A stretch of 46,502 nucleotides of DNA from Eubacteriales bacterium (lineage in GTDB: Bacteria; Bacillota; Clostridia; Oscillospirales; Oscillospiraceae), in NCBI GenBank assembly GCA_030539285.1, contig JAUNSH010000021.1:1-46502 (forward strand), in the 5' to 3' direction. This document shows, piece after piece, positions 8,403 through 38,955 of this stretch. Under the pieces are notes generated by a model. That model had not been told where the DNA came from and did not search any database. It saw only the letters and a program-made list of their open reading frames with translations. Position 1 is the stretch's first letter; each line of letters starts with the position of its first letter. The translations under genes and the position numbers were made by a program.

Positions 8403-8431
8403 TTGACATTTTGGTGAACTTGCGCTAAAGT
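8403..8431 (+). promoter_or_regulatory. SigA-type promoter of the D-glutamate cyclase/pxp operon
   Basis: TTGACA (8403-8408), a 17-bp spacer, and TAAAGT (8426-8431). Transcription would start near 8438, right at the base of the hairpin described next. Confidence 0.75.
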
Positions 8432-8437
8432 AGTCTC

Positions 8438-8487
8438 AACGGCAAGGGTGTCGTCCGAAGGGAAACGCCCTTGCCGTTATTTGTTTT
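8438..8487 (+). terminator. 5'-terminal terminator-like hairpin (attenuator candidate)
   Basis: A 13-bp stem with one G-T pair: 8438-8450 (aacggcaagggtg) with 8466-8478 (cgcccttgccgtt), a 15-nt loop, then atttgttttg. It would lie at the very 5' end of the mRNA, ahead of the ribosome binding site (GAAGGA) of the first gene. It may attenuate the operon, protect the 5' end, or be a leaky terminator. Confidence 0.6.
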
Positions 8488-8504
8488 GTAAAGAAGGAAT
8501 CCAT

Positions 8505-9575
8505 ATGACGCAGCAGGAATTGACGCTTCGCAATTTAGGACAAAGTCTGGATGATCTGGCGAATCTGGACCCCCGGGGTTACGGTGTCTGCAAGATCCTC
8601 TACGATGCCTCCCGGAGTTACACAGGAGGCCCTACCTCCATGAACGCCGCCATAAAGCTGGCCCAGACCGTTAAGACGGGCGACATTGTGTACATCATGA
8701 CCGGATTTGTGCTCCGGCCCTATAAGAAAGCAGAGATGGACGGTATCGTCAGCGCCGCGCTGTTATGCCGTGCACTGGTCATCGCCTTTGGGGCAAAGCC
8801 TGTCATCGTATGTCCCAAGGCCAATTATGAAGCTGTTCGCCAGCTGGCTCCCTGCGTGGGCCTCCATCTGCGGGAGGACATGGAGGAGCTGCGGGAGATC
8901 CCGGTCTCCATGGGTGTGATCTGCTTCACCGGTGACGCTGCCCTCGCCTCAAAGCAGGCGGAGGAGATCATCGAACGAGATCATCCAGCCGCGGTGGTCA
9001 GTGTAGAATGTCCCGGCGCCAACGATAGAGGTGTCTACCACAACGCCACAGGTCTGGACGTGACGGAACTGGAAGCCAAGCAGGACGTTCTGTTTGAAAA
9101 ACTGCAGGCCATGGGTGTGCTGAACATCGCCATCGGTGACCTGGGCAACGAGATCGGCATGGGAACCATTCGTGAGACCCTGGAAGCGTACATTCCCTAT
9201 GCGGGAAAAAACGCCTGCCGGTGCGGCTGCTGCGGCGGCATTGCCGTGCGCACCAAGGCGGACAATATCATCACTGCCACCGTCTCAGACTGGGGCTGCT
9301 ACGCCATGATCGCTGCTCTGGCCTATCTGAAGGGAGACCCGGACATCATGCACACACCGGAGTTGGAACAGGCAGCCATGGAGACCGCCTGCCGCAGCGG
9401 CATGATCGATATGTATGGTTGGCTGATCCCCGCCATTGATGGCTTCGGACCAGAGATCAACCTGCCCATAGTGGCACTGATGCGGAACCTGGTCATCAGC
9501 GCCCTGAAGCTGAAAACTACCTGTGAAACGTGGTTTGAGAAGGTGGACGCGCTTCACTATTTTGACAGGCACTGA
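8505..9575 (+). CDS. DUF4392 protein: C-terminal half of split D-glutamate cyclase
   Basis: 356 aa. Characteristic segments are YIMTGFVLRPYKKAEMDGIV (about 65-84), VVSVECPGANDRGVYHNATG (about 164-183), AIGDLGNEIGMGTIRETLEA (about 207-226), a cysteine cluster CRCGCCGG and SDWGCYAM. These match DUF4392, the domain forming the C-terminal part of mammalian D-glutamate cyclase (DGLUCY), which converts D-glutamate to 5-oxo-D-proline. Here it is a separate protein; the DUF1445 partner is encoded three genes downstream. The ATG at 8505 has AAGGA 8 nt upstream; an in-frame extension to 8448 would run through the hairpin. It is the first gene of a five-gene operon with pxpBCA. Cyclase activity is inferred by homology. 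Confidence 0.85.
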   Translation: MTQQELTLRNLGQSLDDLANLDPRGYGVCKILYDASRSYTGGPTSMNAAIKLAQTVKTGDIVYIMTGFVLRPYKKAEMDGIVSAALLCRALVIAFGAKPVIVCPKANYEAVRQLAPCVGLHLREDMEELREIPVSMGVICFTGDAALASKQAEEIIERDHPAAVVSVECPGANDRGVYHNATGLDVTELEAKQDVLFEKLQAMGVLNIAIGDLGNEIGMGTIRETLEAYIPYAGKNACRCGCCGGIAVRTKADNIITATVSDWGCYAMIAALAYLKGDPDIMHTPELEQAAMETACRSGMIDMYGWLIPAIDGFGPEINLPIVALMRNLVISALKLKTTCETWFEKVDALHYFDRH

Positions 9576-9580
9576 CACCT

Positions 9581-10294
9581 ATGGAAGAGGTAAGATTTCT
9601 GACCTGCGGCGACTGCGCCGTGACCGTGGCCTTTGCCCAGGAGATTCGGGAGGATACCAACCGAAAAATACGGTATCTCGCGGAAAAGCTGCAAAAAACC
9701 GGGATCCACGGCCTTTTGGAAACGGTCCCCACCTATTGCAGCCTGACAGTGTACTATGAACCGCTGATCCTGAGCAGAAAGAAGCTGGAACACCAGATCC
9801 TCCATTTTCTCGCTTCCTACAGGGAAAATGCCGCCGGAAAAAAGCGGATCTTTCAGATCCCTGTCTGTTACGAGGGGGAATTCGCGCCGGATATGGAGGA
9901 TGTGTGCCGTCTGACGGGGCTGAGCCGGGAGCAGGTGGTAAAGCTTCACAGCTCTGTGGATTATCTCATCTATATGCTGGGCTTCCTGCCGGGGTTTCCG
10001 TATCTGGGCGGCATGGACCCCCGGCTGGAAGCGCCACGGCTGGACAACCCCAGGACCCGGATCCCGCCAGGAGCCGTGGGCATTGGCGGGAAGCAGACCG
10101 GCATCTATCCCCTGGCCTCCCCCGGCGGCTGGCGGCTCATCGGCAGGACGCCTGCCATGATCTATGATCCGAACCGTGCCAAACCCATTGTTTATGAAGC
10201 CGGGGACTATATTCGTTTCTGCCCCATTACCGTAGATGAATTCTACCGTCTTCAGGAAGGCGGCCAGACCGATATCCGGGAGGTGAGCCTATGA
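9581..10294 (+). CDS. pxpB: 5-oxoprolinase subunit PxpB (KipI family)
   Basis: 237 aa. The allophanate-hydrolase-subunit-1 fold is shown by FLTCGDCAVTVAFAQEI at the N-terminus and FLPGFPYLGGMDPRLEAPR, RIPPGAVGIGGKQTGIYPLA and SPGGWRLIGRTP in the C-terminal half. PxpB, PxpC and PxpA together hydrolyse 5-oxoproline to glutamate with ATP in bacteria; the older name KipI reflects a Bacillus sporulation kinase inhibitor role. The gene starts 6 bp after the DUF4392 stop and overlaps pxpC by 4 bp, so translation is probably coupled. Cytoplasmic. Confidence 0.92.
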   Translation: MEEVRFLTCGDCAVTVAFAQEIREDTNRKIRYLAEKLQKTGIHGLLETVPTYCSLTVYYEPLILSRKKLEHQILHFLASYRENAAGKKRIFQIPVCYEGEFAPDMEDVCRLTGLSREQVVKLHSSVDYLIYMLGFLPGFPYLGGMDPRLEAPRLDNPRTRIPPGAVGIGGKQTGIYPLASPGGWRLIGRTPAMIYDPNRAKPIVYEAGDYIRFCPITVDEFYRLQEGGQTDIREVSL

Positions 10295-11229
10295 AACTGA
10301 CGATTCTCTCCCCCGGACCGCTGACCACCATTCAGGACGGCGGACGCTTTGGGGCCATGGGCAAGGGCTTCTCTCCCGGCGGCGCTATGGACCAGGAGGC
10401 CATGGTCCTTGCCAATCTGCTGGTGGGCAACGCCCCGGGGGTCGGCGTTCTGGAAATGACCATGCTGGGCATCACCGCCCGGTTTGACTGCGACTGCGCC
10501 ATTGCCCTGACGGGGGCGAATATGTCCGCTCAGCTGAACGGCAGTCCCATCGCACGGTATTGCTCTGTACGCGTCCACGCGGGCGACGTTCTTTCCATGA
10601 AAACGGCAAAACATGGGATGCGGGCCTATCTGGCGGTGGCCGGTGGCTTTGATCTGCCGGTGGTCATGGGCAGCGTATCCACCAATGTAAAATGTGTTCT
10701 GGGCGGATTCCAGGGCCGGAAACTGCAAGCGGGCGACGAGCTGCCTTTGAACCAGAGCGGCGCGGCGTTTCAGTCCCGGCAGATACCGCCCCCGGAGGAC
10801 TATCCTGGCAGCATTTCCCTGCGGGTACTGCTGGGGCCCCAGGATGACGCGTTTACGCGGAAGGGCATCGACACATTTTTGGGGAGCGAATACACCGTGA
10901 CGGACAAAGCCGACCGGATGGGCATTCGGCTTTCCGGCGAAAAAATTGAAAGCAAAGACGGTGTGGACATCCTGTCCGACGGCATTGCCGCGGGGTCTGT
11001 ACAGATCCCTGCCTCCGGCACACCCATTATCATGATGGCCGACCGACAGACCACCGGTGGCTATGCGAAGATCGCCACAGTGATTTCCGCCGATCTTGGC
11101 CGGGCGGCACAGGCCCGGCCCGGTACCCGCATTCACTTTGTGCAGGTAACGGAAACGGAGGCCATTCGGCTTCGGCGGGAAGCAGAGAAAAAACGAAAGC
11201 AGCTGGAATACGAGCTGCTGTATGGATAA
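10291..11229 (+). CDS. pxpC: 5-oxoprolinase subunit PxpC (KipA, biotin-dependent carboxyltransferase-like)
   Basis: 312 aa beginning MKLTILSPGPLTTIQDGGR, followed by SPGGAMDQEAMVLANLLVGN, the standard opening of the PxpC/urea amidolyase-like domain. Later segments MMADRQTTGGYAKIATVISA and DLGRAAQARPGTRIHFVQV are also typical. Length is normal for the family (around 310-330 aa). With PxpB it forms the ATP-using part of 5-oxoprolinase. It overlaps pxpB by 4 bp (ATGA). No break or missing segment is visible. Confidence 0.93.
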   Translation: MKLTILSPGPLTTIQDGGRFGAMGKGFSPGGAMDQEAMVLANLLVGNAPGVGVLEMTMLGITARFDCDCAIALTGANMSAQLNGSPIARYCSVRVHAGDVLSMKTAKHGMRAYLAVAGGFDLPVVMGSVSTNVKCVLGGFQGRKLQAGDELPLNQSGAAFQSRQIPPPEDYPGSISLRVLLGPQDDAFTRKGIDTFLGSEYTVTDKADRMGIRLSGEKIESKDGVDILSDGIAAGSVQIPASGTPIIMMADRQTTGGYAKIATVISADLGRAAQARPGTRIHFVQVTETEAIRLRREAEKKRKQLEYELLYG

Positions 11230-11246
11230 CAGAAAGGTTGAAAACG

Positions 11247-12032
11247 ATGGACTATTCCACTATGAAGCCCAGCGAGGTAAGAGCGCTGATCCGTCAGGGC
11301 AAACTCACCGGGCAGACCTCCGGCATGTGCGACGGCTACGCTCAGGGGAATCTGCTGGTTCTGCCCCGGGCCCAAGCCTATGACTTTCTCCTGTTCACCC
11401 AGCGAAACCCCAAGTCCTGCCCCATTCTGGAAGTTGGCGACGTGGGAAGCCGGCTGGTCAAGCGCATGGCAGCGGATGCGGATATTGCGACAGATATCCC
11501 CAAATACAGGGTCTGGGAAAACGGTGTCATGACGGGAGAATATACAGACATTTCCCAGCTGTGGCGGGAGGATTTTGTCTATTTTCTCATTGGCTGCTCC
11601 TTCTCCTTTGAAGGGGAGTTGCTGTCCGCCGGTGTGCCTGTGCGGCACATCGAGGAGGGAAAAAACGTGCCCATGTACCTGACCAACATCGACTGTGAAC
11701 CTGCCGGCATCTTCCACGGCAAGCTGGTTGTCAGTATGCGGCCCATGCCGGCGGATCAGGTGATCCGGGCGGTGAGCATCACCGCATCCATGCCCCGTGT
11801 CCACGGCGCGCCTATCCACATCGGCGACCCCGCCAAAATCGGCATTGCGGATATTCACAAGCCGGATTTCGGCGACGCGGTGACCATTCATGAAGGGGAA
11901 ATTCCCGTGTTCTGGTGCTGCGGTGTCACCCCCCAGTCCGTGGTCATGAACGCGAAGCCGCCCATCGCCATCTCCCACGCTCCGGGACATATGTTCATCA
12001 CGGATGTAAAAAATTCTCTGCTGAAGGACTGA
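11247..12032 (+). CDS. DUF1445 (YcsI-type) protein: N-terminal half of split D-glutamate cyclase
   Basis: 261 aa beginning MDYSTMKPSEVRALIRQGKL. The family is often labelled 'putative hydro-lyase'. Typical segments are GQTSGMCDGYAQGNLLVLP, FVYFLIGCSFSFEGELLSAG, NVPMYLTNIDCEPAGIFHG, VVSMRPM and the C-terminal PVFWCCGVTPQSVVM plus HAPGHMFITD. DUF1445 is the N-terminal part of mammalian D-glutamate cyclase, fused there to DUF4392, which is encoded here at 8505-9575. The ATG at 11247 is preceded by AAAGG; a TTG nine bases earlier is less likely. It sits between pxpC and pxpA, so the cyclase halves and the 5-oxoprolinase subunits are interleaved in one transcript. The activity is inferred. Confidence 0.88.
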   Translation: MDYSTMKPSEVRALIRQGKLTGQTSGMCDGYAQGNLLVLPRAQAYDFLLFTQRNPKSCPILEVGDVGSRLVKRMAADADIATDIPKYRVWENGVMTGEYTDISQLWREDFVYFLIGCSFSFEGELLSAGVPVRHIEEGKNVPMYLTNIDCEPAGIFHGKLVVSMRPMPADQVIRAVSITASMPRVHGAPIHIGDPAKIGIADIHKPDFGDAVTIHEGEIPVFWCCGVTPQSVVMNAKPPIAISHAPGHMFITDVKNSLLKD

Positions 12033-12037
12033 TTGGT

Positions 12038-12805
12038 ATGTACAAAATCGATTTGAACTGTGACCTGGGCGAAAGCTTCGGCGCTTACCATCTTGGAATG
12101 GACAACGAGATCATCCCCTTGATCTCGTCGGCGAACGTAGCCTGCGGCTTTCACGCGGGGGATTGCAACACCATGGCAAAAACAGCCCGGCTGTGCGCAG
12201 CCAGTGGTGTATCGGTGGGTGCCCACCCCGGATTTCCGGATCTGCAAGGCTTTGGGCGCAGAAATATGAACCTGTCCCCGGCGGAGGTACAGAATCTGGT
12301 CACCTGCCAGGTTGGCGCGCTGTATGCCTTCTGCCGGAGCGCCGGAGTTCAGCTGCGGCACGTCAAGCCCCACGGCGCACTGTACAACATGGCGGCGAAG
12401 GACACGGCCCTTGCCAGAGCCATCTGTCAGGGCATCCACGCCTTTGACCCCTCCCTGATCCTGCTGGGTCTGTCCGGCAGCGAAATGCTGCGGCAGGCAA
12501 GAGCAGTAGGCCTCCCCTGCGCTGCAGAGGTCTTCGCTGACCGGGCCTACGAGGATGACGGCACCTTGGTCCCCAGAACCAGGCCCGGCTCTATGATCAC
12601 CGACGAGGACGAGGCTGTGGAACGGGTCATCCGAATGATTCTGGAGCACCGGATTACCTCCATCAACGGAAAGGAAATCGAAATCAGCCCGGATTCCGTC
12701 TGTGTCCATGGCGACAGCGAAAAGGCCCTGCTGTTTGTGAAAAAAATCCGAACCGCCTTGGAGCAGAACGGTATCACCATCCAGCCTCTCCACAAAATTG
12801 TATAG
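12038..12805 (+). CDS. pxpA: 5-oxoprolinase subunit PxpA (LamB/YcsF family)
   Basis: 255 aa beginning MYKIDLNCDLGESFGAYHLG, the diagnostic start of the LamB/YcsF family, followed by SSANVACGFHAGD, GAHPGFPDLQGFGRRNM and HVKPHGALYN. PxpA is the subunit that, with PxpBC, opens 5-oxoproline to glutamate. Full length for the family (about 250 aa). The ATG at 12038 follows the DUF1445 stop by 5 bp; GAAGGA overlapping the preceding gene's end serves as ribosome binding site. Last gene before a strong terminator. Confidence 0.93.
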   Translation: MYKIDLNCDLGESFGAYHLGMDNEIIPLISSANVACGFHAGDCNTMAKTARLCAASGVSVGAHPGFPDLQGFGRRNMNLSPAEVQNLVTCQVGALYAFCRSAGVQLRHVKPHGALYNMAAKDTALARAICQGIHAFDPSLILLGLSGSEMLRQARAVGLPCAAEVFADRAYEDDGTLVPRTRPGSMITDEDEAVERVIRMILEHRITSINGKEIEISPDSVCVHGDSEKALLFVKKIRTALEQNGITIQPLHKIV

Positions 12806-12812
12806 ATAAGAG

Positions 12813-12857
12813 AACAACCATTGCTCTCCATTTTGGAAAGCAATGGTTGCTTTTTTA
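12813..12857 (+). terminator. Intrinsic terminator of the pxp operon
   Basis: Stem caaccattgct (12815-12825) with agcaatggttg (12839-12849), then ctttttt. The T-run overlaps the 3' end of the convergent lplA gene. Confidence 0.9.
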
Positions 12858-19775: not shown

Positions 19776-19950
19776 TTCTGCTGAAAACCTGAGAGATTCC
19801 CGGGGATAACCCCAGTTGCACCTTCGGTGTGCCTTCCTAATTTTAGCACTCTACAGAATACCGTCATGGCACAGTCCTTTTGCCTGAGAGTTTCTGCTTT
19901 CCCCTTCGGCGTCCGTTTTTCGGAACTCTCCTGAGCCAGTCATCCGATGA
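19776..19950 (-). ncRNA. Tandem glycine riboswitch (gcv operon)
   Basis: Read on the minus strand, aptamer 1 shows GGCTCAGGAGAG, then CGCCGAAGGGG and AACTCTCAGGCAAAAGGAC. Aptamer 2 follows after a short linker with CACACCGAAGGTGCAA and AATCTCTCAGG. The repeated CCGAAGG and CTCTCAGG elements are the conserved core of the glycine riboswitch. It controls the seven-gene metV-metF-gcvTHPAPB-lplA operon. No clear promoter was found between it and the dat gene, whose stop lies only about 25 nt upstream, so readthrough from the liv-dat transcript is possible. Confidence 0.93.
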
Positions 19951-19973: not shown

Positions 19974-20831
19974 TCAGCCTTCCAGTGTGGTACAGCCTGT
20001 GTAGGCGTAGAACTCCTTCAAAACCTCGTCCTGAATGGCTTTCAGCGTTACAGGATCCTTGCCGCCCACCGGCTGGCCGTTCAGGGAGCCTGCGTGGAGG
20101 CAGAAGTTGGAGGAAGAGGACACGATGATCTCGTCCGCGTTTTTCAGGAACTCAAGGGTAAAGGGCTTTTCCAGCACAGGAATGCCCAACCGGTAGCAGG
20201 CCTGGATCATGTGGGTCTTGGCGATGCCCCGCAGAATCAATTCATCGTTGGGGTGAGAGTAGAACACACCGTCCTTCAGCACGGACACATTGGAGTGGGC
20301 GCATTCTGTCACGATGTCACCCCGGTGGAACACGGTCTCGGCGAAGCCAGCACACTTGGCCCGTTGGGCGGTCATGACGCTGGGCAGCAGGTTCAGGGTC
20401 TTGATGTTGCAGTGGTAGAACCGGGTGTCCTCCTCATCGTTGATGGCAATGGGCACATCAGGGTCATTCAAAGTCTGGGGCCGGATCAGCATCCACAGCT
20501 TGCCGGGAATGTCCGGCGCGTAGACGTGGTTACGTTCCTCCACGCCCCGGGTCACCTGCCAGTAGACGAAGTTGATCTTGCTGTCCACCTTTTGCAGCAG
20601 CTCCGTCAGGAGCGTTCCCAGCGCTTCCTTCTCCATGGGAATGCGGATGTCCAGCAGCTTCGCGCTGGTGTAGAACCGGTCCAGGTGGTCCTGAAGAAGG
20701 TACACCTTCCCGTTGGCGCCTACGGTGGCGTCATAGCAGCCGTCGCCGAAGAAATGGACCCGGTCATTGAAGGGGACCATCAGTTCCGAAGGGGTTCCGA
20801 TTTTTCCATCATAATATGCCAGTGCTTCCAT
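19974..20831 (-). CDS. dat: D-amino-acid aminotransferase (class IV, PLP)
   Basis: 285 aa. It aligns by eye along its length with Bacillus D-alanine aminotransferase: FNDRVHFFGDGCYDA, LQDHLDRFYTSAKLLDIRIP, FVYWQVTRGVEERNH, the PLP-lysine segment CNIKTLNLLPSV (K144), ETVFHRGDIVTECAHSNVSV and DEIIVSSSSNF. The enzyme interconverts D-amino acids and 2-oxo acids and can form D-glutamate from D-alanine. Because it sits at the end of a Liv-type transporter operon, a branched-chain aminotransferase role was considered, but the N-terminal and VTRG segments favour D-amino acids. GAAGGAG precedes the ATG. Confidence 0.85.
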   Translation of the reverse strand: MEALAYYDGKIGTPSELMVPFNDRVHFFGDGCYDATVGANGKVYLLQDHLDRFYTSAKLLDIRIPMEKEALGTLLTELLQKVDSKINFVYWQVTRGVEERNHVYAPDIPGKLWMLIRPQTLNDPDVPIAINDEEDTRFYHCNIKTLNLLPSVMTAQRAKCAGFAETVFHRGDIVTECAHSNVSVLKDGVFYSHPNDELILRGIAKTHMIQACYRLGIPVLEKPFTLEFLKNADEIIVSSSSNFCLHAGSLNGQPVGGKDPVTLKAIQDEVLKEFYAYTGCTTLEG

Positions 20832-20888: not shown

Positions 20889-21533
20889 TTATTTTGGCGC
20901 TTTCACGCCGAATTTCAGTTCTACGACTTTCTTGATGATCTCCACGCAGTTGTCAAGCCCCAGAGCCGCTGTGTCCAGGCACAGGTCGTAGTTGGAAATG
21001 ACCTTCCACTGGCGGCCGGTGTGGTACTTGTAATAGCTCTCCCGGTAGCGGTCCAGGCGGTCAATGTAGTGGGAGGCCTCCCAGCGGCTGATACCCTGGC
21101 GTTCCACTTCCCGGGCCACACGGGCTTCATAGGGGGCATCGATGTAAACCGTCAGCACATTGGGCTTATCCCGCAGGACGAAGTCCGCCGCCCGGCCCAC
21201 ACAGACGTAGCTCTCGCAGTCCAGCAGCTCCCGGAGCACCTTGGACTGGTAATTGAACAGGTTTTCATCGCTGGTGAAGTTGCCGCTTTCCGGGGGGATC
21301 AGCTTGCCGTCATAGACCTTCTGAGATACCTTATATAAAAGTGTCTTACGGGTATTCTCGTCCGCCCTGGCAAAGACTGCCTCGCTGATGCCGCTGTCAT
21401 CGGAAGCAAGGCGCAAGAGCTTGCGGTCATAGAGGTCAATGCCGTAATCCGCGGCCAGCTTTTTGCCGATATAGCTGCCGCCGCCGGAACCGCAGGTGCG
21501 GGTAATGGCGATGGCAAAATTTGTCTGAGACAT
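20889..21533 (-). CDS. Cytidylate kinase-like family protein
   Basis: 214 aa. The N-terminal ITRTCGSGGGSYIGKKLA is a modified P-loop typical of the cytidylate-kinase-like family (PF13189), followed by YDRKLLRLASDDSGIS and a central VCVGRAADFVLRDKP. True CMP kinases usually carry GPSGSGKST, which is absent, so the substrate is uncertain. It starts 12 bp after livF and precedes dat by 57 bp. A regulatory or nucleotide-salvage role has been proposed for relatives, but I cannot assign a reaction. Confidence 0.8.
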   Translation of the reverse strand: MSQTNFAIAITRTCGSGGGSYIGKKLAADYGIDLYDRKLLRLASDDSGISEAVFARADENTRKTLLYKVSQKVYDGKLIPPESGNFTSDENLFNYQSKVLRELLDCESYVCVGRAADFVLRDKPNVLTVYIDAPYEARVAREVERQGISRWEASHYIDRLDRYRESYYKYHTGRQWKVISNYDLCLDTAALGLDNCVEIIKKVVELKFGVKAPK

Positions 21534-21545
21534 ACGTACCTCTCC

Positions 21546-22244
21546 TTACTGCCCAAGATAGGCCTTTTTCACTCTGGGATCGTCCAGAAGCGATGCCGCG
21601 TCGCCTTCAATGCTGATGGTTCCCGTTTCCAGCACGTAGGCCCGGTTAGAAATGGACAGGGCCATTTTGGCGTTCTGCTCCACCAGCAGCACCGTGATGC
21701 CGGCCTTATTGACCTCCTGAATGATGTCGAAAATCTCCTGCACCAGCAGCGGGGACAGGCCCATGGATGGTTCGTCCATGAGGATCATTTTGGGCTTTGC
21801 CATCAGCGCCCGGCCTACCGCCAGCATCTGCTGCTCGCCGCCGGAGAGGGTGCCTGCCAGCTGACGGCGGCGTTCACTCAGGCGGGGAAACCTGGCATAC
21901 ACATCCTCCATGGTCTTCGCCATGCCGGTTTTGTCAGCGTAGGCACCCATCTCCAGATTTTCCGCCACGGTCATCTGGGGGAAGATGTGGCGTCCCTCGG
22001 GCACATGGGCCAGCTTCAGAGTGATGATCTTGCTGGGGGTGGTCTTGGTCAAGTCGTGACCGTCAAAGACGATGCTGCCGGAGGCCGCCTTTTCAAGACC
22101 CGTAATGGTCCGCAGAGTTGTGGTCTTGCCCGCGCCGTTGGCACCGATCAGGGAGACGATCTCGCCGTCGTTTACCGTCAGGGAAATGCCGTTCAGCGCC
22201 TGAACCGCGCCGTAATTGACGCACAGATCCTTCACTTCAAGCAT
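21546..22244 (-). CDS. livF: Branched-chain amino acid ABC transporter ATPase LivF
   Basis: 232 aa ABC ATPase of the Liv/HAAT type. Walker A GANGAGKTTTLRT (about 35-47), signature LSGGEQQMLAVGRAL, Walker B MILMDEPSMGLSP, and the LivF-typical ending KAYLGQ. It energises import with LivG through the LivHM channel. It overlaps livG by 8 bp. Length is the family norm (230-237 aa). Confidence 0.95.
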   Translation of the reverse strand: MLEVKDLCVNYGAVQALNGISLTVNDGEIVSLIGANGAGKTTTLRTITGLEKAASGSIVFDGHDLTKTTPSKIITLKLAHVPEGRHIFPQMTVAENLEMGAYADKTGMAKTMEDVYARFPRLSERRRQLAGTLSGGEQQMLAVGRALMAKPKMILMDEPSMGLSPLLVQEIFDIIQEVNKAGITVLLVEQNAKMALSISNRAYVLETGTISIEGDAASLLDDPRVKKAYLGQ

Positions 22245-23043
22245 TTTTCGTCACCTCCTGCGCCGTCTTGTCCTTACCGAGATAGGCCTCAATGACCTTT
22301 TTATTGTTCGCGATCTCCTCCGGAGTACCGGAAGCAATGGTCGTGCCGAAGTCCAGCACCTGTATCCTCTCGCAGATCTTCATGACCAGACTCATATCGT
22401 GCTCAATAAGCAGGACAGAGACCTTGAACTCCTTGCGGATGTAGTTGATGATCTCCAGAAGTTCCTCTGTTTCCGTGGGATTCATACCGGCGGCAGGCTC
22501 ATCCAGAAGCAGCAGCTTCATGTTGGTGGCCAGCGCCCGGGCGATCTCCAGACGGCGCTGCTGTCCATAGGGTAGATTGTCCGCTTCAAGATCCTCCTTG
22601 CCGGACAGGTGTACCACCTTGAGAAGCTCCTTGGCCCGCTCTGTGGCGGCCTGCTCCAGCTCCCAGTAGGCTTTGGTTCGAAAAATGGCCTGGAGCATTC
22701 CGTAGGGCAGTTCTTCCAGCATGGCAGCCTTTACATTTTCCAGTACCGTCATTTTTTTGAACAACCGGATATTCTGGAAGGTCCGGGCAATGCCCGCGTG
22801 GACGATCTGATGGGTCTTCTTCCCGTTCATCCGTTCTCCATTTAGGTAGAAGGAACCCTCAGTTGGCTTATAAACGCCGGTGATCAGGTTGAAAACAGTA
22901 GTCTTGCCCGCGCCATTGGGGCCGATGAGTCCCACCAGCTCAGACTGCCCGATTTCCATATTGAAGTCATCCACTGCTTTCAGTCCACCGAACTGGATGC
23001 CCAGATGCTGGCACCGAAGGACGGGGGTAGAATTCGCTGCCAT
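22237..23043 (-). CDS. livG: Branched-chain amino acid ABC transporter ATPase LivG
   Basis: 268 aa. Walker A GPNGAGKTTVFNLITGVYKP, signature LPYGQQRRLEIARAL (the Gly-Gln version usual in LivG), Walker B LLLLDEPAAGMNPTET and the H-loop LLIEHDMSLVM. It pairs with LivF. The C-terminal tail (DKTAQEVTKNA) overlaps the start of livF. The gap to livM is 4 bp. Confidence 0.95.
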   Translation of the reverse strand: MAANSTPVLRCQHLGIQFGGLKAVDDFNMEIGQSELVGLIGPNGAGKTTVFNLITGVYKPTEGSFYLNGERMNGKKTHQIVHAGIARTFQNIRLFKKMTVLENVKAAMLEELPYGMLQAIFRTKAYWELEQAATERAKELLKVVHLSGKEDLEADNLPYGQQRRLEIARALATNMKLLLLDEPAAGMNPTETEELLEIINYIRKEFKVSVLLIEHDMSLVMKICERIQVLDFGTTIASGTPEEIANNKKVIEAYLGKDKTAQEVTKNA

Positions 23044-23047
23044 ACGC

Positions 23048-24040
23048 TCACGCTCCTTCCTTTACTGTGTCACGCTTGAACAGCTTCCCCAGCAGCCGGG
23101 TCAGACTGAACTCCCAGTGGCCAAAAATCCCGCCGGGACGGAACAGCATGACCAGTACCAGCACCACAGAGTAGGCTAGCATCCGATAGGTGGCAAAATC
23201 CCGCATAGCCTCCGGCAGAACACTGAGGAAAGCTGCGCCGATGACGGAGCCGGTGAGAGAACCGGTGCCGCCGATGATCACCTCGGACAGAAGCTCTGCC
23301 GAGTAGGCGAAGTTAAAGTTGGTGGGGATCATAGCCGTCATGTAGTGGGCATAGATGCTGCCGCCGATGCCCGCGAAAAAGGCGGAAACGGCAAAGGTCA
23401 TGACCTTATAGAAGGTAACGTTGATGCCCGAGGCGGAAGCGGCGATGTAGTCCTCCCGGATGGCTCGGATGGTACGCCCGAACTTACTTCTGACGAACAG
23501 GAACATGATGGACACGCAGACCACCATGACCCAGAAGGCCCGGGGGAAGGTGGACAGCTTCAGGATGCCGCTCATGGTCTTGCCGCCGCCGGTAATGGAG
23601 AAGTTGCAGAAGCAGACGCGAATGATCTCCGCAAAGGCCATGGTAACGATGGCCAGATAATCGCCCCGCAGCCGCAGAGCCGGAATGCCTACCAGCACCC
23701 CCATCAGTCCGGCGGCCAGTCCGCCGGCCAGCAGGGCCACCAAAAACAGGCCCAGATCCGGAAGTCCCTTACCGGTGAGCAGGCCGGAGACGATGGCGGA
23801 GGCATAAGCACCCACGGACACAAAGCCCGCGTGGCCTAGAGAGAATTCACCCATGAAGCCCACCACCAGGTTCAGTGATGCCACCATAATAATGGTATAG
23901 CAGGCGGTGGTGCAGATGCCCTGAATATAAGTCGTTGAAGTTCCGAATACACCCGCGGAGAACAGGATGCTCAGCACCACGAATACCAGTGCCACACCCA
24001 CGGCGTTCAGCAGGTAGGAAACCCGAATTTTCTTACTCAT
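23048..24040 (-). CDS. livM: Branched-chain amino acid ABC transporter permease LivM
   Basis: 330 aa integral membrane protein with about 8-10 hydrophobic segments. The permease signature appears as LNLVVGFMGEFSLGHAGF near residues 55-75, followed by PALRLRGDYLAIVTMAFAEI and SIRAIREDYIA-like cytoplasmic loop (TIRAIREDYIAASASGI). It forms the transmembrane channel with LivH. It starts 13 bp after livH. Confidence 0.93.
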   Translation of the reverse strand: MSKKIRVSYLLNAVGVALVFVVLSILFSAGVFGTSTTYIQGICTTACYTIIMVASLNLVVGFMGEFSLGHAGFVSVGAYASAIVSGLLTGKGLPDLGLFLVALLAGGLAAGLMGVLVGIPALRLRGDYLAIVTMAFAEIIRVCFCNFSITGGGKTMSGILKLSTFPRAFWVMVVCVSIMFLFVRSKFGRTIRAIREDYIAASASGINVTFYKVMTFAVSAFFAGIGGSIYAHYMTAMIPTNFNFAYSAELLSEVIIGGTGSLTGSVIGAAFLSVLPEAMRDFATYRMLAYSVVLVLVMLFRPGGIFGHWEFSLTRLLGKLFKRDTVKEGA

Positions 24041-24053
24041 AGTTCCTTCCTCC

Positions 24054-24944
24054 TTACACCTTTTCTCCCACGTTCTTACCCAAAATGCCGGAGGGCTTCA
24101 CCAGCAGGATCACGATCAGGGTGCCGTAGGTGACTGCCTCATACCAGCCCGGGGCAAAGAGCTTTACGAATATTTCAATCAGACCCACCAGAATGCCGCC
24201 CAACATGGCACCGGGGATAACGCCGATGCCGCCAAGGACCGCAGCAATGAAGGCCTTCATGCCCATCATGGAGCCCATGTCGTTGGTGACGCGGGGGTAG
24301 GTGGAGCAGTACATGAGCGCCGCTACCGCCGCGAGGCCGGAGCCGATGGCAAAGGTGAGGGTGATGATCTTGTCAACGTTAATGCCTACCAGAGTGGAGG
24401 CGTCCTTGTCCTGGGGAACGGCCCGCATGGCCTTGCCCAGATTGGTCTTCTTCACAAAGAACTGCATCGCCAGCATGATGAGCAGGCCGATTGCAATGGT
24501 CAGCAGCACATTCAGCGGCAGGGATACGGTGCCGATACGCACCGTAGGCAGGGAGAAAATTGCCTGAACATTGTGGGGCTTGGCACCAAAGAGCACCATG
24601 GCCAGGTTTTCCAGAAAAATACTCATGGCCAGCGCCGTGATCAGCGCGGACATGGAACCGGCCTTGCGCACCGGCTTGTAGGCCAGGATCTCCACCAGCA
24701 CACCCACCAGAGCGCAGACGACAATGGCGATGATCACGGCCATCCAGGCGGGCATTCCGGCATTTACCATCAACGGAATGGTATAAAACAGGGTGTAGGC
24801 GCCGATCATGATGAAGTCGCCGTGGGCAAAGTTGATCATGCGGATGATGCCGTACACCATGGTGTAGCCCAAAGCGATCAGCGCGTAGATAGCCCCCTGG
24901 TTCAGACCGTTAATGAGGCCCTGGACAAATAGGGATGCTGTCAT
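24054..24944 (-). CDS. livH: Branched-chain amino acid ABC transporter permease LivH
   Basis: 296 aa, 8 or so membrane segments. Typical LivH features are GLNQGAIYALIALGYTMVYG near the N-terminus, MINFAHGDFIMIGAY and the cytoplasmic coupling segment KAMRAVPQDKDASTLVGINV. It is separated from livK by 75 bp containing a strong stem-loop. Confidence 0.94.
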   Translation of the reverse strand: MTASLFVQGLINGLNQGAIYALIALGYTMVYGIIRMINFAHGDFIMIGAYTLFYTIPLMVNAGMPAWMAVIIAIVVCALVGVLVEILAYKPVRKAGSMSALITALAMSIFLENLAMVLFGAKPHNVQAIFSLPTVRIGTVSLPLNVLLTIAIGLLIMLAMQFFVKKTNLGKAMRAVPQDKDASTLVGINVDKIITLTFAIGSGLAAVAALMYCSTYPRVTNDMGSMMGMKAFIAAVLGGIGVIPGAMLGGILVGLIEIFVKLFAPGWYEAVTYGTLIVILLVKPSGILGKNVGEKV

Positions 24945-24972
24945 AATCCATTCACCTTCCTTGTAACCTTAG

Positions 24973-25001
24973 GCGCGCGGCAGCAGGTCACTGCCGCGCG
25001 C
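24973..25001 (-). other. GC-rich intergenic stem-loop between livK and livH
   Basis: Perfect 11-bp arms gcgcgcggcag (24973-24983) and ctgccgcgcgc (24991-25001). The T-run lies on the plus-strand side, so for the liv mRNA it is a stem-loop without a downstream U-tract. This placement is typical of structures that stabilise the upstream message and raise binding-protein levels over permease levels. Confidence 0.7.
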
Positions 25002-25019
25002 ATTTTTTGTTTTTACAGA

Positions 25020-26252
25020 TCAGCTGGCGCTGGAAACCAGATTACCGTCGGCATCCAGAGTCTCGCTCCACTTTACCTCGCCGTCAACGTAGGTATTGAA
25101 GACGATGCTCTTGATAGCGTCGCCGTTTTCATCCAGGGTGATGTCGCCGCCCACACCGGTGAAGCTCATACCCTTCATGCCGGCAACCAGGCTGGCGGTA
25201 TCCGTGCCGCCGCCGTTCTTGGCAGCTTCCACCAGCATATACATGGCGTCGTAGTACAGAGCAGCGCAGGCGTTCAGGCTCTCAGTGCCGTACTTGGCGG
25301 TAAACTTCTCCACGAAGTTCACCACCGCGGGAGCGGTATCCTCGCTGGAGTAGTGGTTGGTGAAGTAGCAGCCCTCAAACTTGTCCGCAAGGCCGGTGGT
25401 ATCGGAGCCATCCCAGCCGTCGCCGCCCATGATGATGCCGGTAAAGCCTGCGTTACGGGCAGCGCCCACGAACAGAGGCACGGTGTCCAGGAAACAGGGG
25501 TAATACAGGAACTCCGCGCCGGAGGCCACAGCCTGCGCAGTCTGGGAGCTGAAGTCGGTATCGGTGGTCATGCACTCACCCACGTAAGCGACCTCAATGC
25601 CATTGGATTCGCAGTTCTCAATAAAGGCATCCTTCAGGCCGTTGGAATAGTCGTCATCCTTGGCATAGATCACGGCAACCTTGGTCAGGCCCTTGCCCTT
25701 GACGAACAGAGCAGCCATCTTGCCCTGATAGGGGTCGATGAAGCAGTTACGGAAAATCGTGTCGCCCTTCAGAGTAACGGCGGAGTTGGTAGCGCCGGTG
25801 GCCAGCAGCAGCATACCATCCTTGGCGGCCTGCTCAGCCATAGGCAGGGTGACGGAGGAGAAGAAGCTGCCGACCAGAGCCTCGGGGCCGTCTGCCATGA
25901 CCTTATTGTAGGCGTTCATGGCCTGCTTGGCGTCCTTGGCATCGTCGGCGATCTTGCCGCCGTTGACGATCTCGATCTTATATTCAGAATCACTGGAATT
26001 GATTTCCTCAACAGCCATATCCACGGCATTCTGAGCGCCCTCGCCGTAAATGGCGGAGCCGCCGGTCATGGCGCAGATAACGCCTACGCGGATCACCTTG
26101 TCTTCCGCACCGGAGGCGGCGGCAGGGGCAGCGCTGTCAGTGGCGGGAGTACCTGCCGCGGCGGTCTGCGCGCTGGAGGAACAACCGGCCATCATGCTGG
26201 TCAACAGGACGGCGGTCAGAAACAGAGAAACAACCTTTCTTACCTTTTTCAT
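25020..26252 (-). CDS. livK: Amino acid ABC transporter substrate-binding lipoprotein (LivK type)
   Basis: 410 aa. A lipoprotein signal peptide ends at MMAGC (lipidation at about Cys24) and is followed by a low-complexity Ala/Ser linker. The periplasmic-binding type I domain starts IRVGVICAMTGGSAIYGEGA, with ALVGSFFSSVTLPMAEQAAK, NCFIDPYQGKMAALFV and MGGDGWDGSDT further on. It is anchored outside the membrane and feeds LivHMGF. First gene of the operon; specificity within the HAAT family (branched-chain or other hydrophobic amino acids) is not certain. Confidence 0.92.
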   Translation of the reverse strand: MKKVRKVVSLFLTAVLLTSMMAGCSSSAQTAAAGTPATDSAAPAAASGAEDKVIRVGVICAMTGGSAIYGEGAQNAVDMAVEEINSSDSEYKIEIVNGGKIADDAKDAKQAMNAYNKVMADGPEALVGSFFSSVTLPMAEQAAKDGMLLLATGATNSAVTLKGDTIFRNCFIDPYQGKMAALFVKGKGLTKVAVIYAKDDDYSNGLKDAFIENCESNGIEVAYVGECMTTDTDFSSQTAQAVASGAEFLYYPCFLDTVPLFVGAARNAGFTGIIMGGDGWDGSDTTGLADKFEGCYFTNHYSSEDTAPAVVNFVEKFTAKYGTESLNACAALYYDAMYMLVEAAKNGGGTDTASLVAGMKGMSFTGVGGDITLDENGDAIKSIVFNTYVDGEVKWSETLDADGNLVSSAS

Positions 26253-38189: not shown

Positions 38190-38365
38190 GGAAACGGGCT
38201 TACTCTGTCCTTTTACCTGAGAGATTCGGCATTTGCAGCCTTGCACCTTCGGTACCCATTATCCGGGATTCTCCAGAGCCACATCCATTCTTAGTCCCCA
38301 CCTGATATCAGGCACCTGAGAGTGTTACTCCTTCGGCAGGCTTGCGCCATTCCCCTAAGAACTTC
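38190..38365 (-). ncRNA. Tandem glycine riboswitch (AGCS symporter)
   Basis: Minus strand: aptamer 1 has CTTAGGGGAATGGCGC, GCCTGCCGAAGGAG and AACACTCTCAGGTGCC, closing with GGGGACTAAG. Aptamer 2 has CTCTGGAGAATCC, GGTACCGAAGGTGC and AATCTCTCAGGTAAAAGGAC, closing with AGAG. Both carry the CCGAAGG and CTCTCAGG core. This is the second glycine sensor in the window; it sits in front of a probable glycine carrier. Confidence 0.93.
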
Positions 38366-38548: not shown

Positions 38549-38955
38549 GTCTCAATTGGAAAGAGTCTTTCCAAAGCAAGATACTGCGACCGCCGGTCCA
38601 AAGCCGGCTAAGGCCATACGGACAGCCGGGTCGAATGCCGAAGACCGCCCTTAAGCGGTTTGGCAACTTCTGTTGCCTTATTGATTGAGTTAAAAGCTCA
38701 GTTTTATAAGTTGGTTACTATAAACCGATCATGCCCCATGGCATAAACTTGTGAAATGATCAATAAGAGTAGTAAAAGTAATCTTTGCTATATAGACTCT
38801 GATCTGATTCGGACGCGATTCCCTTTCTGCGCTGCCGGATGCGAAATTTGTCGAACCTTTTCGGATTTCGTATTGTCTTTGTCCGGTTTTCCTGAGAGGG
38901 CGTTGCAGAAATGACACAAGCGGTATGCCGATGCTCGGCGTACCGCTTTTTCTTT
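38549..38955 (+). ncRNA. Structured leader RNA of potABCD, class not recognised
   Basis: The roughly 400 nt between a strong promoter and an intrinsic terminator contain no credible gene but many local stems: ggaaag/ctttcc (about 38560-38574), gccggt/gccggc (about 38595-38611), accgc/gcggt (about 38644-38660), ggcaac/gttgcc (about 38662-38677), atgcc/ggcat (about 38729-38743), gatca/tgatc enclosing it, and atgcgaaat/atttcgtat (about 38839-38873). A terminator at 38918-38955 ends it just before the potA ribosome binding site. I do not see the conserved cores of SAM, TPP, cobalamin, glycine, T-box or guanidine-I elements, nor of RNase P RNA, SRP RNA or tmRNA. It may be a polyamine-related riboswitch or a separate small RNA. 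Confidence 0.6.
38918..38955 (+). terminator. Terminator between leader RNA and potA
   Basis: Stem aagcggtatgccg (38918-38930) with cggcgtaccgctt (38936-38948), one G-T pair, 5-nt loop, then tttttcttt. It lies 32 nt before the potA start, so potABCD transcription from the 38515 promoter requires readthrough. Confidence 0.88.

Follow-up and report, generated by a model that had tools for sequence, protein, structure and literature searches.

Comparison with described systems

Bacterial 5-oxoprolinase consists of the subunits PxpA, PxpB and PxpC; phosphorylation of 5-oxoproline is assumed to fall to PxpB and PxpC, and its opening to PxpA (PMC13274462). The described operons of B. subtilis, C. 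glutamicum (pxpTABC) and C. difficile (pxpAGBC) include the NRAMP-family gene pxpT/ycsG; PxpT is needed for growth of C. glutamicum on 5-oxoproline and its homologue YcsG for the use of 5-oxoproline by B. subtilis (PMC13274462), and YcsI lies in the B. subtilis pxp operon (PMC10448178). In a second system, the vertebrate mitochondrial D-glutamate cyclase DGLUCY (GLUCM), the mouse protein with DUF1445 and DUF4392 domains converts D-glutamate to 5-oxo-D-proline (PMC5339696). Here we analyse a stretch of 46,502 nucleotides from Eubacteriales bacterium (assembly GCA_030539285.1, contig JAUNSH010000021.1), called the window below, in which one operon carries DUF4392, pxpB, pxpC, DUF1445 and pxpA genes. 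In our judgement this cluster is probably, though with appreciable doubt, a D-amino-acid nitrogen salvage module that leads from a D-amino acid and 2-oxoglutarate through D-glutamate and 5-oxoproline to glutamate.

PxpA, PxpB and PxpC are common to the module and the PxpT/YcsG operons, and most of the conserved PxpABC positions of NRAMP-linked clusters are found in the module as well, but the module has no NRAMP-type gene and has instead DUF4392 and a D-amino-acid transaminase (DAT), often with alanine racemase (Alr). The module DAT shares with the canonical Bacillus Dat the pyridoxal phosphate (PLP) lysine and the Arg/His pair, whose role we take to be that in the Bacillus enzyme, but it falls below the TIGR01121 cut-off, reads TECAHSN for TEGSSSN and is tied to the DUF4392 cluster. 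The families DUF1445 and DUF4392, and likely the cyclisation itself, are common to the module and DGLUCY, whereas the module has two separate genes, a divergent long-form DUF4392 and PxpABC to use the product. A DUF1445-family gene is already known beside PxpABC in B. subtilis, and we take YcsI to be this DUF1445 protein. The DgcN/DgcA pathway (said to be from Yu et al. 2023, ISME J) reportedly has an N-acetyl intermediate, no cyclisation and different protein families; it would serve the same purpose as the module, the turning of D-glutamate to L-glutamate via a modified intermediate. Split bacterial homologues of the human cyclase have also been tabulated (0 full, 6 split; PMC11580864). The archaeal TON_0340 (Thermococcus), a stand-alone DUF4392 protein, is homodimeric with a full dinuclear metal site, and the same paper reports no DUF1445 homologue in archaea (PMC5132392); in the alignment with TON_0340, a CxCxC segment of the module's DUF4392 falls in a gap. 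Partial literature listings gave no earlier description of a DAT-DUF4392-PxpABC-DUF1445(-Alr) cluster, and literature searches gave no assigned bacterial function for the DUF4392 and DUF1445 families.

Conservation of the gene cluster and its partners

The gene identities and the order given by a first-pass annotation of the window hold: coordinates and Pfam and NCBIfam matches agree on five plus-strand genes, DUF4392-pxpB-pxpC-DUF1445-pxpA, which are spaced by 5, -4, 17 and 5 bases, with pxpB and pxpC overlapping by 4 bases. The 5-oxoprolinase genes are thus encoded together as a set, and the DUF1445 and DUF4392 domains, currently named D-Glu_cyclase (PF07286) and GLUCM-like_C (PF14336) in Pfam, are both far over their cut-offs; they do not form one polypeptide but are encoded by two genes with pxpB and pxpC between them. 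PxpC passes the threshold of the 5-oxoprolinase/urea amidolyase family model and scores 282 bits against the cut-off of 500 of the PxpC equivalog NF045499. DUF1445 is over the cut-off of an NCBIfam model labelled 'putative hydro-lyase', and the NCBIfam scan of the window proteins gave no model for DUF4392.

Relatives were collected by a scan of named genomes with a DUF4392 alignment, which gave at least 574 loci; the 80 ranked highest by likeness to the window protein were kept. Because of this ranking and of the near-copies in the set, the long form is over-represented and the counts cannot be treated as independent. PxpB lies near DUF4392 in 56 of the 80 loci, and the full five-gene set is present in 46. 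The window's order is found as separate genes in 41 of these and with pxpB and pxpC joined into a single frame in two spirochaete loci (L090 and L094, Pfam-checked in L090), while L048, L049 and L050, the last from Clostridium tyrobutyricum, have the order DUF4392-DUF1445-pxpA, then pxpB-pxpC. A gene is missing in 10 Pxp-linked loci, nine of which end at a contig end; L052 has DUF1445 and PxpA on other contigs.

Genome samples show the same association, with p values that ignore relatedness and with DUF4392 counted over its cut-off. DUF4392 is present in 11, DUF1445 in 19 and both in 10 of the 291 genomes of a class sample (Fisher p 1e-12); the corresponding numbers are 38, 62 and 28 in a phylum sample of 398 genomes (Fisher p 8e-18), where one DUF1445 genome (G543) also has a DUF4392 fragment below the cut-off. 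PxpA is present in 10/11 DUF4392 genomes and 18/19 DUF1445 genomes of the class sample, and DUF4392, DUF1445 and PxpA lie together in five of the ten class genomes with all three (G000, G157, G162, G197 and G226); the remaining five have DUF4392 on another contig. The five-gene cluster is no chance neighbourhood, and its gene set is conserved, which bears out the linkage on which the first-pass annotation relied.

Clustering of the neighbouring genes, followed by a profile search upstream of DUF4392, reveals a class IV aminotransferase directly upstream, which D-amino-acid transaminase models match best, below their cut-offs. This DAT lies at most 400 bases upstream in 47 of the 56 Pxp-linked loci, or in 48 including L060 (443 bases); three of the 56 have less than 130 bases of upstream DNA, and the fraction is thus 48/53. 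The conserved residues K144, E176, R100 and H102, which correspond to the PLP lysine, the glutamate and the Arg/His pair, are invariant in 49/49 sequences. Additionally, Alr is found near 20/56 Pxp-linked loci. The linked long-form genomes of the class survey (G157, G162 and G226, the last nearly a copy of L065) all have a DAT, whereas the short-form DUF4392 of G197, which is linked to DUF1445 and PxpABC, has neither DAT nor NRAMP; DAT is therefore a feature of the long-form cluster. In L048-L051, L055, L096 and L156, the gene ahead of DAT encodes an Lrp/AsnC-type regulator.

As the control we took the surroundings of PxpA in every class genome that has PxpA and no DUF4392, 20 in all; five of these stretches are short (5-11 kb). 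DAT and Alr are each found in 0/20 of these neighbourhoods and the NRAMP/PxpT gene in 16/20. The latter gene is found in 0/80 DUF4392 loci, 0/56 of those that are Pxp-linked, and has no match in the window; the profile used combines 14 genes, of which the 20 controls supplied 12, and the two that were scanned were both confirmed as PF01566. PxpABC has two settings, one with an NRAMP gene and the other with a D-glutamate-producing transaminase and a long-form DUF4392. Given the DAT linkage and the missing NRAMP/PxpT gene, 5-oxoproline is probably made inside the cell from D-glutamate, which strengthens the D-glutamate to 5-oxoproline to glutamate route first proposed for the operon.

Proposed pathway and its stereochemistry

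We infer every reaction of the salvage module, together with its direction and stereochemistry. A LIV-type ABC transporter perhaps imports D-amino acids, and DAT would move their amino group to 2-oxoglutarate, giving D-glutamate; another D-amino-acid transaminase interconverts D-alanine plus 2-oxoglutarate and pyruvate plus D-glutamate (PMC10003956). The DUF4392 and DUF1445 proteins would cyclise D-glutamate to 5-oxoproline, with DUF4392 most likely the Mn-dependent catalyst, and PxpABC would open 5-oxoproline to glutamate with the expenditure of ATP. Peptidoglycan is a possible source, and the transaminase, alanine racemase and ABC transporter partners fit D-amino acids in general. If true, this pathway would provide a physiological role for two widespread protein families and a means by which many Clostridia and some spirochaetes salvage D-amino acids. 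A few purified proteins would then suffice for a direct test of the stereochemistry of 5-oxoproline metabolism, and the result would also concern mammals, in which the cyclase is fused and 5-oxo-D-proline is excreted (PMC5339696).

The six acidic metal ligands of DUF4392 are kept in the window and in all loci except the truncated L101, and the window protein has the same fold as the TON_0340-type metalloenzymes. The CxCxC segment of long-form DUF4392 (L042-L121) lies at residues 238-242 of the window protein, is also present in archaeal members and is found in none of the short forms aligned; it is a possible metal or redox site. As a catalytic site it was rejected: it is present in 63/80 loci and is not essential, because it is absent in 13/56 Pxp-linked loci.

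An output of L-glutamate would require inversion of the alpha-carbon on the way, for which DUF1445 is the best candidate; without inversion the cyclisation and PxpABC steps would form an ATP-wasting circle. The stereochemical puzzle raised by the first-pass annotation is thus genuine, as a D-specific PxpABC would regenerate D-glutamate. Type-specific positions were defined as those conserved to at least 85% in each group with differing residues (43-52 module rows and 19-20 NRAMP-linked rows); L048, L049, L050 and L156 were set apart, short rows and controls without NRAMP were left out, and the fused L090 and L094 were left out for PxpB and PxpC. PxpA, PxpB and PxpC have 0, 3 and 1 such positions, respectively, and 67, 53 and 71 positions conserved in both types. 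PxpB position 169 is G in 52/52 module rows and A in 20/20 controls and 4/4 set-apart rows. PxpB position 52 is F in 45/52 module rows and in 4/4 set-apart rows and Y in 19/20 controls; one position thus tracks the module. These few changes give little indication of a D-specific PxpABC, although less conserved positions could still set specificity. The likeness of PxpABC to the transporter-linked type weakly favours inversion before PxpABC. DUF1445 has 0 type-specific positions against 83 shared ones (with only 6 control rows) and also accompanies NRAMP-linked PxpABC where DUF4392 is missing; it therefore plausibly acts on 5-oxoproline itself.

In quick trees, the test of a single clade for the module proteins gave approximately unbiased (AU) p values of 0.117 for PxpC, 0.78 for PxpA and 0.31 for DUF1445. 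The PxpC tree needs 2 changes, as L048, L049, L050 and L156 stand there beside the control L133. None of these values rejects a single clade, and the trees do no more than hint at a second recruitment of PxpBC.

A more specific version of the pathway is put forward tentatively, and we would sooner doubt it than adopt it: a one-way, ATP-driven deracemisation of glutamate, with DAT, the Mn enzyme DUF4392, DUF1445 as a cofactor-free 5-oxoproline racemase that would use its two invariant cysteines, C117 and C225 of the 261-aa protein, and an L-specific PxpABC, which would pull the 5-oxoproline mixture to L-glutamate. The racemase role that we infer for DUF1445 would be a new enzyme activity and would explain its company with PxpABC even without DUF4392.

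Several observations, in addition to the composition of the 80-locus set, weigh against the salvage pathway. PxpB is not nearby in 24/80 DUF4392 loci, 21 of which have a DUF4392 that is 30-38% identical to that of the window. Long-form DUF4392 also occurs in archaea and proteobacteria without PxpB nearby, in some cases beside Amdase/UbiD genes, so DUF4392 may have other substrates, and the long form is 28% identical to TON_0340, whose measured activity is that of a weak Mn-dependent phosphatase (PMC5132392). Adjacent DAT is missing in L042, L043, L057, L071 and L072 despite the presence of upstream DNA, and L042 and L043 are the nearest relatives of the window operon; a whole-genome search gave no DAT match in L043, a partial one (about 165/285 residues) in L042, and 1, 3 and 2 matches elsewhere in L057, L071 and L072, respectively. 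The DAT of the window lies 7 kb from the operon on the opposite strand, so the two may not be co-regulated. The importer argument would be weakened by other work, in which B. subtilis YcsG imported Mn and a polar effect was considered as a possible cause of its 5-oxoproline phenotype (PMC10448178). Finally, three genes of the Asp/Glu racemase family are present in the window genome, so inversion from D to L could be the work of a glutamate racemase.

Alternative explanations

The first-pass annotation proposed that DUF1445 and DUF4392 are the two halves of one heteromeric D-glutamate cyclase; as an obligate complex, with a PxpABC that accepts the D-lactam, this is unlikely. The two domains are fused in vertebrates (PMC5339696, PMC5132392), both are present in 28/38 phylum-sample and 10/11 class-sample DUF4392 genomes, and they are adjacent even outside the DAT module (G197). 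Nevertheless, each often occurs without the other, which weakens an obligate heteromer: DUF1445 is found without DUF4392 in 34/62 phylum-sample genomes and in the B. subtilis control genome (PF07286), and DUF4392 without DUF1445 in 10/38 phylum-sample genomes and in 16 of 31 genomes with loci that are not fully linked, some of them incomplete (DUF1445 in 15, PxpA in 18). TON_0340, with its full metal site, is a homodimer (PMC5132392). Opening of the D-lactam would only return D-glutamate, and PxpABC has few type-specific conserved changes.

A housekeeping role is slightly less probable again. PxpABC would clear spontaneous 5-oxoproline, as B. subtilis pxp mutants accumulate 5-oxoproline (PMC13274462), and the DUF proteins would be unrelated enzymes that share the operon, for example an Mn-dependent phosphatase like TON_0340 (PMC5132392). 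This role does not account for the linkage of DAT and Alr to long-form loci, the absent NRAMP gene or the cyclase activity of the mouse fusion. To our knowledge, cyclisation is the only activity known for the DUF1445 and DUF4392 pair. Least probable is a reverse flow, in which PxpABC opens 5-oxo-D-proline to D-glutamate, DAT uses it with pyruvate to form D-alanine, Alr yields L-alanine, and DUF1445 and DUF4392 interconvert the 5-oxoproline enantiomers or do something else: it needs no inversion before PxpABC, Alr is near 20/56 Pxp-linked loci and another D-amino-acid transaminase runs in both directions (PMC10003956), but cyclisation by the DUF pair would undo PxpABC, PxpABC resembles the transporter-linked type, and the NRAMP/PxpT gene is in 0/80 loci, although an ABC transporter could import 5-oxoproline.

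Features of the operon and its surroundings

The promoter and terminator that had been attributed to the operon correspond to a promoter-like site and to a strong hairpin with a T run after pxpA (Table 1). Six such promoter-like sites occur in 6 kb on both strands, against 2.6 expected. In the closest relative, L042, the site lies in the same place, with the -35 element unchanged and the -10 element almost so, and the promoter regions of L043 and L046 have nothing alignable to it. The leader stem-loop is also present in L042, with substitutions, is not alignable in L043 and L046, and has no Rfam match at the gathering threshold. The terminator scan lists the terminator-like hairpin on the minus strand; the plus-strand fold has a z of -8.5, and the T run lies behind it in the sequence. 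For DUF1445, the ATG start at 11247, behind AGAAAGG, is preferred to the TTG at 11238.

Table 1. Positions and supporting matches of the operon and of related features in the window
Feature	Position	Strand	Evidence
DUF4392 / GLUCM-like_C (PF14336), long form, presumed Mn-dependent D-glutamate cyclase	8505..9575	+	356 aa, ATG 8505; Pfam 5e-86
pxpB, 5-oxoprolinase subunit	9581..10294	+	Pfam 1.7e-75; TIGR00370 217 bits, over cut-off
pxpC, 5-oxoprolinase subunit	10291..11229	+	Pfam 1.6e-97; TIGR00724 over cut-off
DUF1445 / PF07286 D-Glu_cyclase (UPF0317 family)	11247..12032	+	Pfam 7.5e-72
pxpA, 5-oxoprolinase subunit	12038..12805	+	PF03746 1.6e-105; NF003814 (PxpA subfamily model) over cut-off
Promoter-like TTGACA-17-TAAAGT	8403..8431	+	10/12 consensus positions
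Stem-loop, presumed 5' leader	8438..8478	+	8436-8504 fold -31.8 kcal/mol, z -6.1 against shuffles
Terminator-like hairpin	about 12813..12851		-26.3 (+), -27.3 (-) kcal/mol; z about -8
DAT, operon partner in relatives	19974..20831	-	PF01063 1.9e-36; TIGR01121 204 bits, cut-off 277
Cytidylate_kin2-like gene between ABC genes and DAT	20889..21533	-	PF13189 1.3e-47
LIV-type ABC transporter: livF, livG, livM, livH, substrate-binding protein	21546..26252	-	NCBIfam Liv models best, all below cut-offs

The DAT gene listed in Table 1 is the one DAT match in the window genome. It encodes a class IV aminotransferase with the PLP Lys and the Arg/His pair that does not reach the TIGR01121 equivalog cut-off, and its best PDB matches are the D-alanine aminotransferases 9pxs, 3daa and 1daa. 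The substrate-binding protein of the ABC genes matches PF13458. The operon and DAT are separated by a lipoate ligase gene and by genes whose translations suggest glycine-cleavage and folate functions. The ABC-kinase-DAT gene order of the window is that found directly upstream of DUF4392 in L054, L062, L063, L065, L067, L068 and L070. The DAT/ABC block is 68-83% identical to that of L063, L065, L067 and L068, and the operon is 43-64% identical to theirs; compared with G162, the operon is 65-87% identical and DAT only 53%. In quick trees, the window DAT falls in an 11-row set (SH-aLRT 100), of which 8 rows are labelled ABC-linked, and is placed away from L046 and L157, which neighbour the window in the PxpC tree. 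Because the gene trees conflict, the simplest reading would be that the window lineage lost its adjacent DAT and acquired one from a different lineage together with the ABC genes. At L178 (G291:C155, ~9555-12500), a stretch of the nearest relative's genome, the matches to DAT and livG are partial and directly adjoin each other; counterparts of livF, the kinase-like gene and the binding-protein gene of the block were not found in that genome, perhaps through a deletion or an assembly fault.

Among DUF4392 loci without PxpABC nearby, L099, L100, L108, L117 and L121 have an adjoining Amdase/Asp-Glu-racemase-like gene (Pfam-checked in L099, L108 and L121), and a UbiD-like gene is also present at L100, L117 and L121 (Pfam-checked in L121). 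A Rhodobacteraceae metagenome-assembled genome encodes a 723-aa protein with two tandem DUF4392 stretches (L116:7959-10127), and this gene adjoins a gene that clusters with the DUF4387 gene of L110.

Elsewhere in the window, the genes whose translations suggest folate and glycine-cleavage functions are headed by a pair of glycine riboswitch aptamers at 19776-19943 (-), and a lone aptamer at 38195-38286 (-) precedes a sodium:alanine symporter gene. Additionally, 38587-38641 (+) matches the Streptococcus sRNA SpF59 (RF02440) and lies ahead of an ABC operon whose translations read as polyamine-type.

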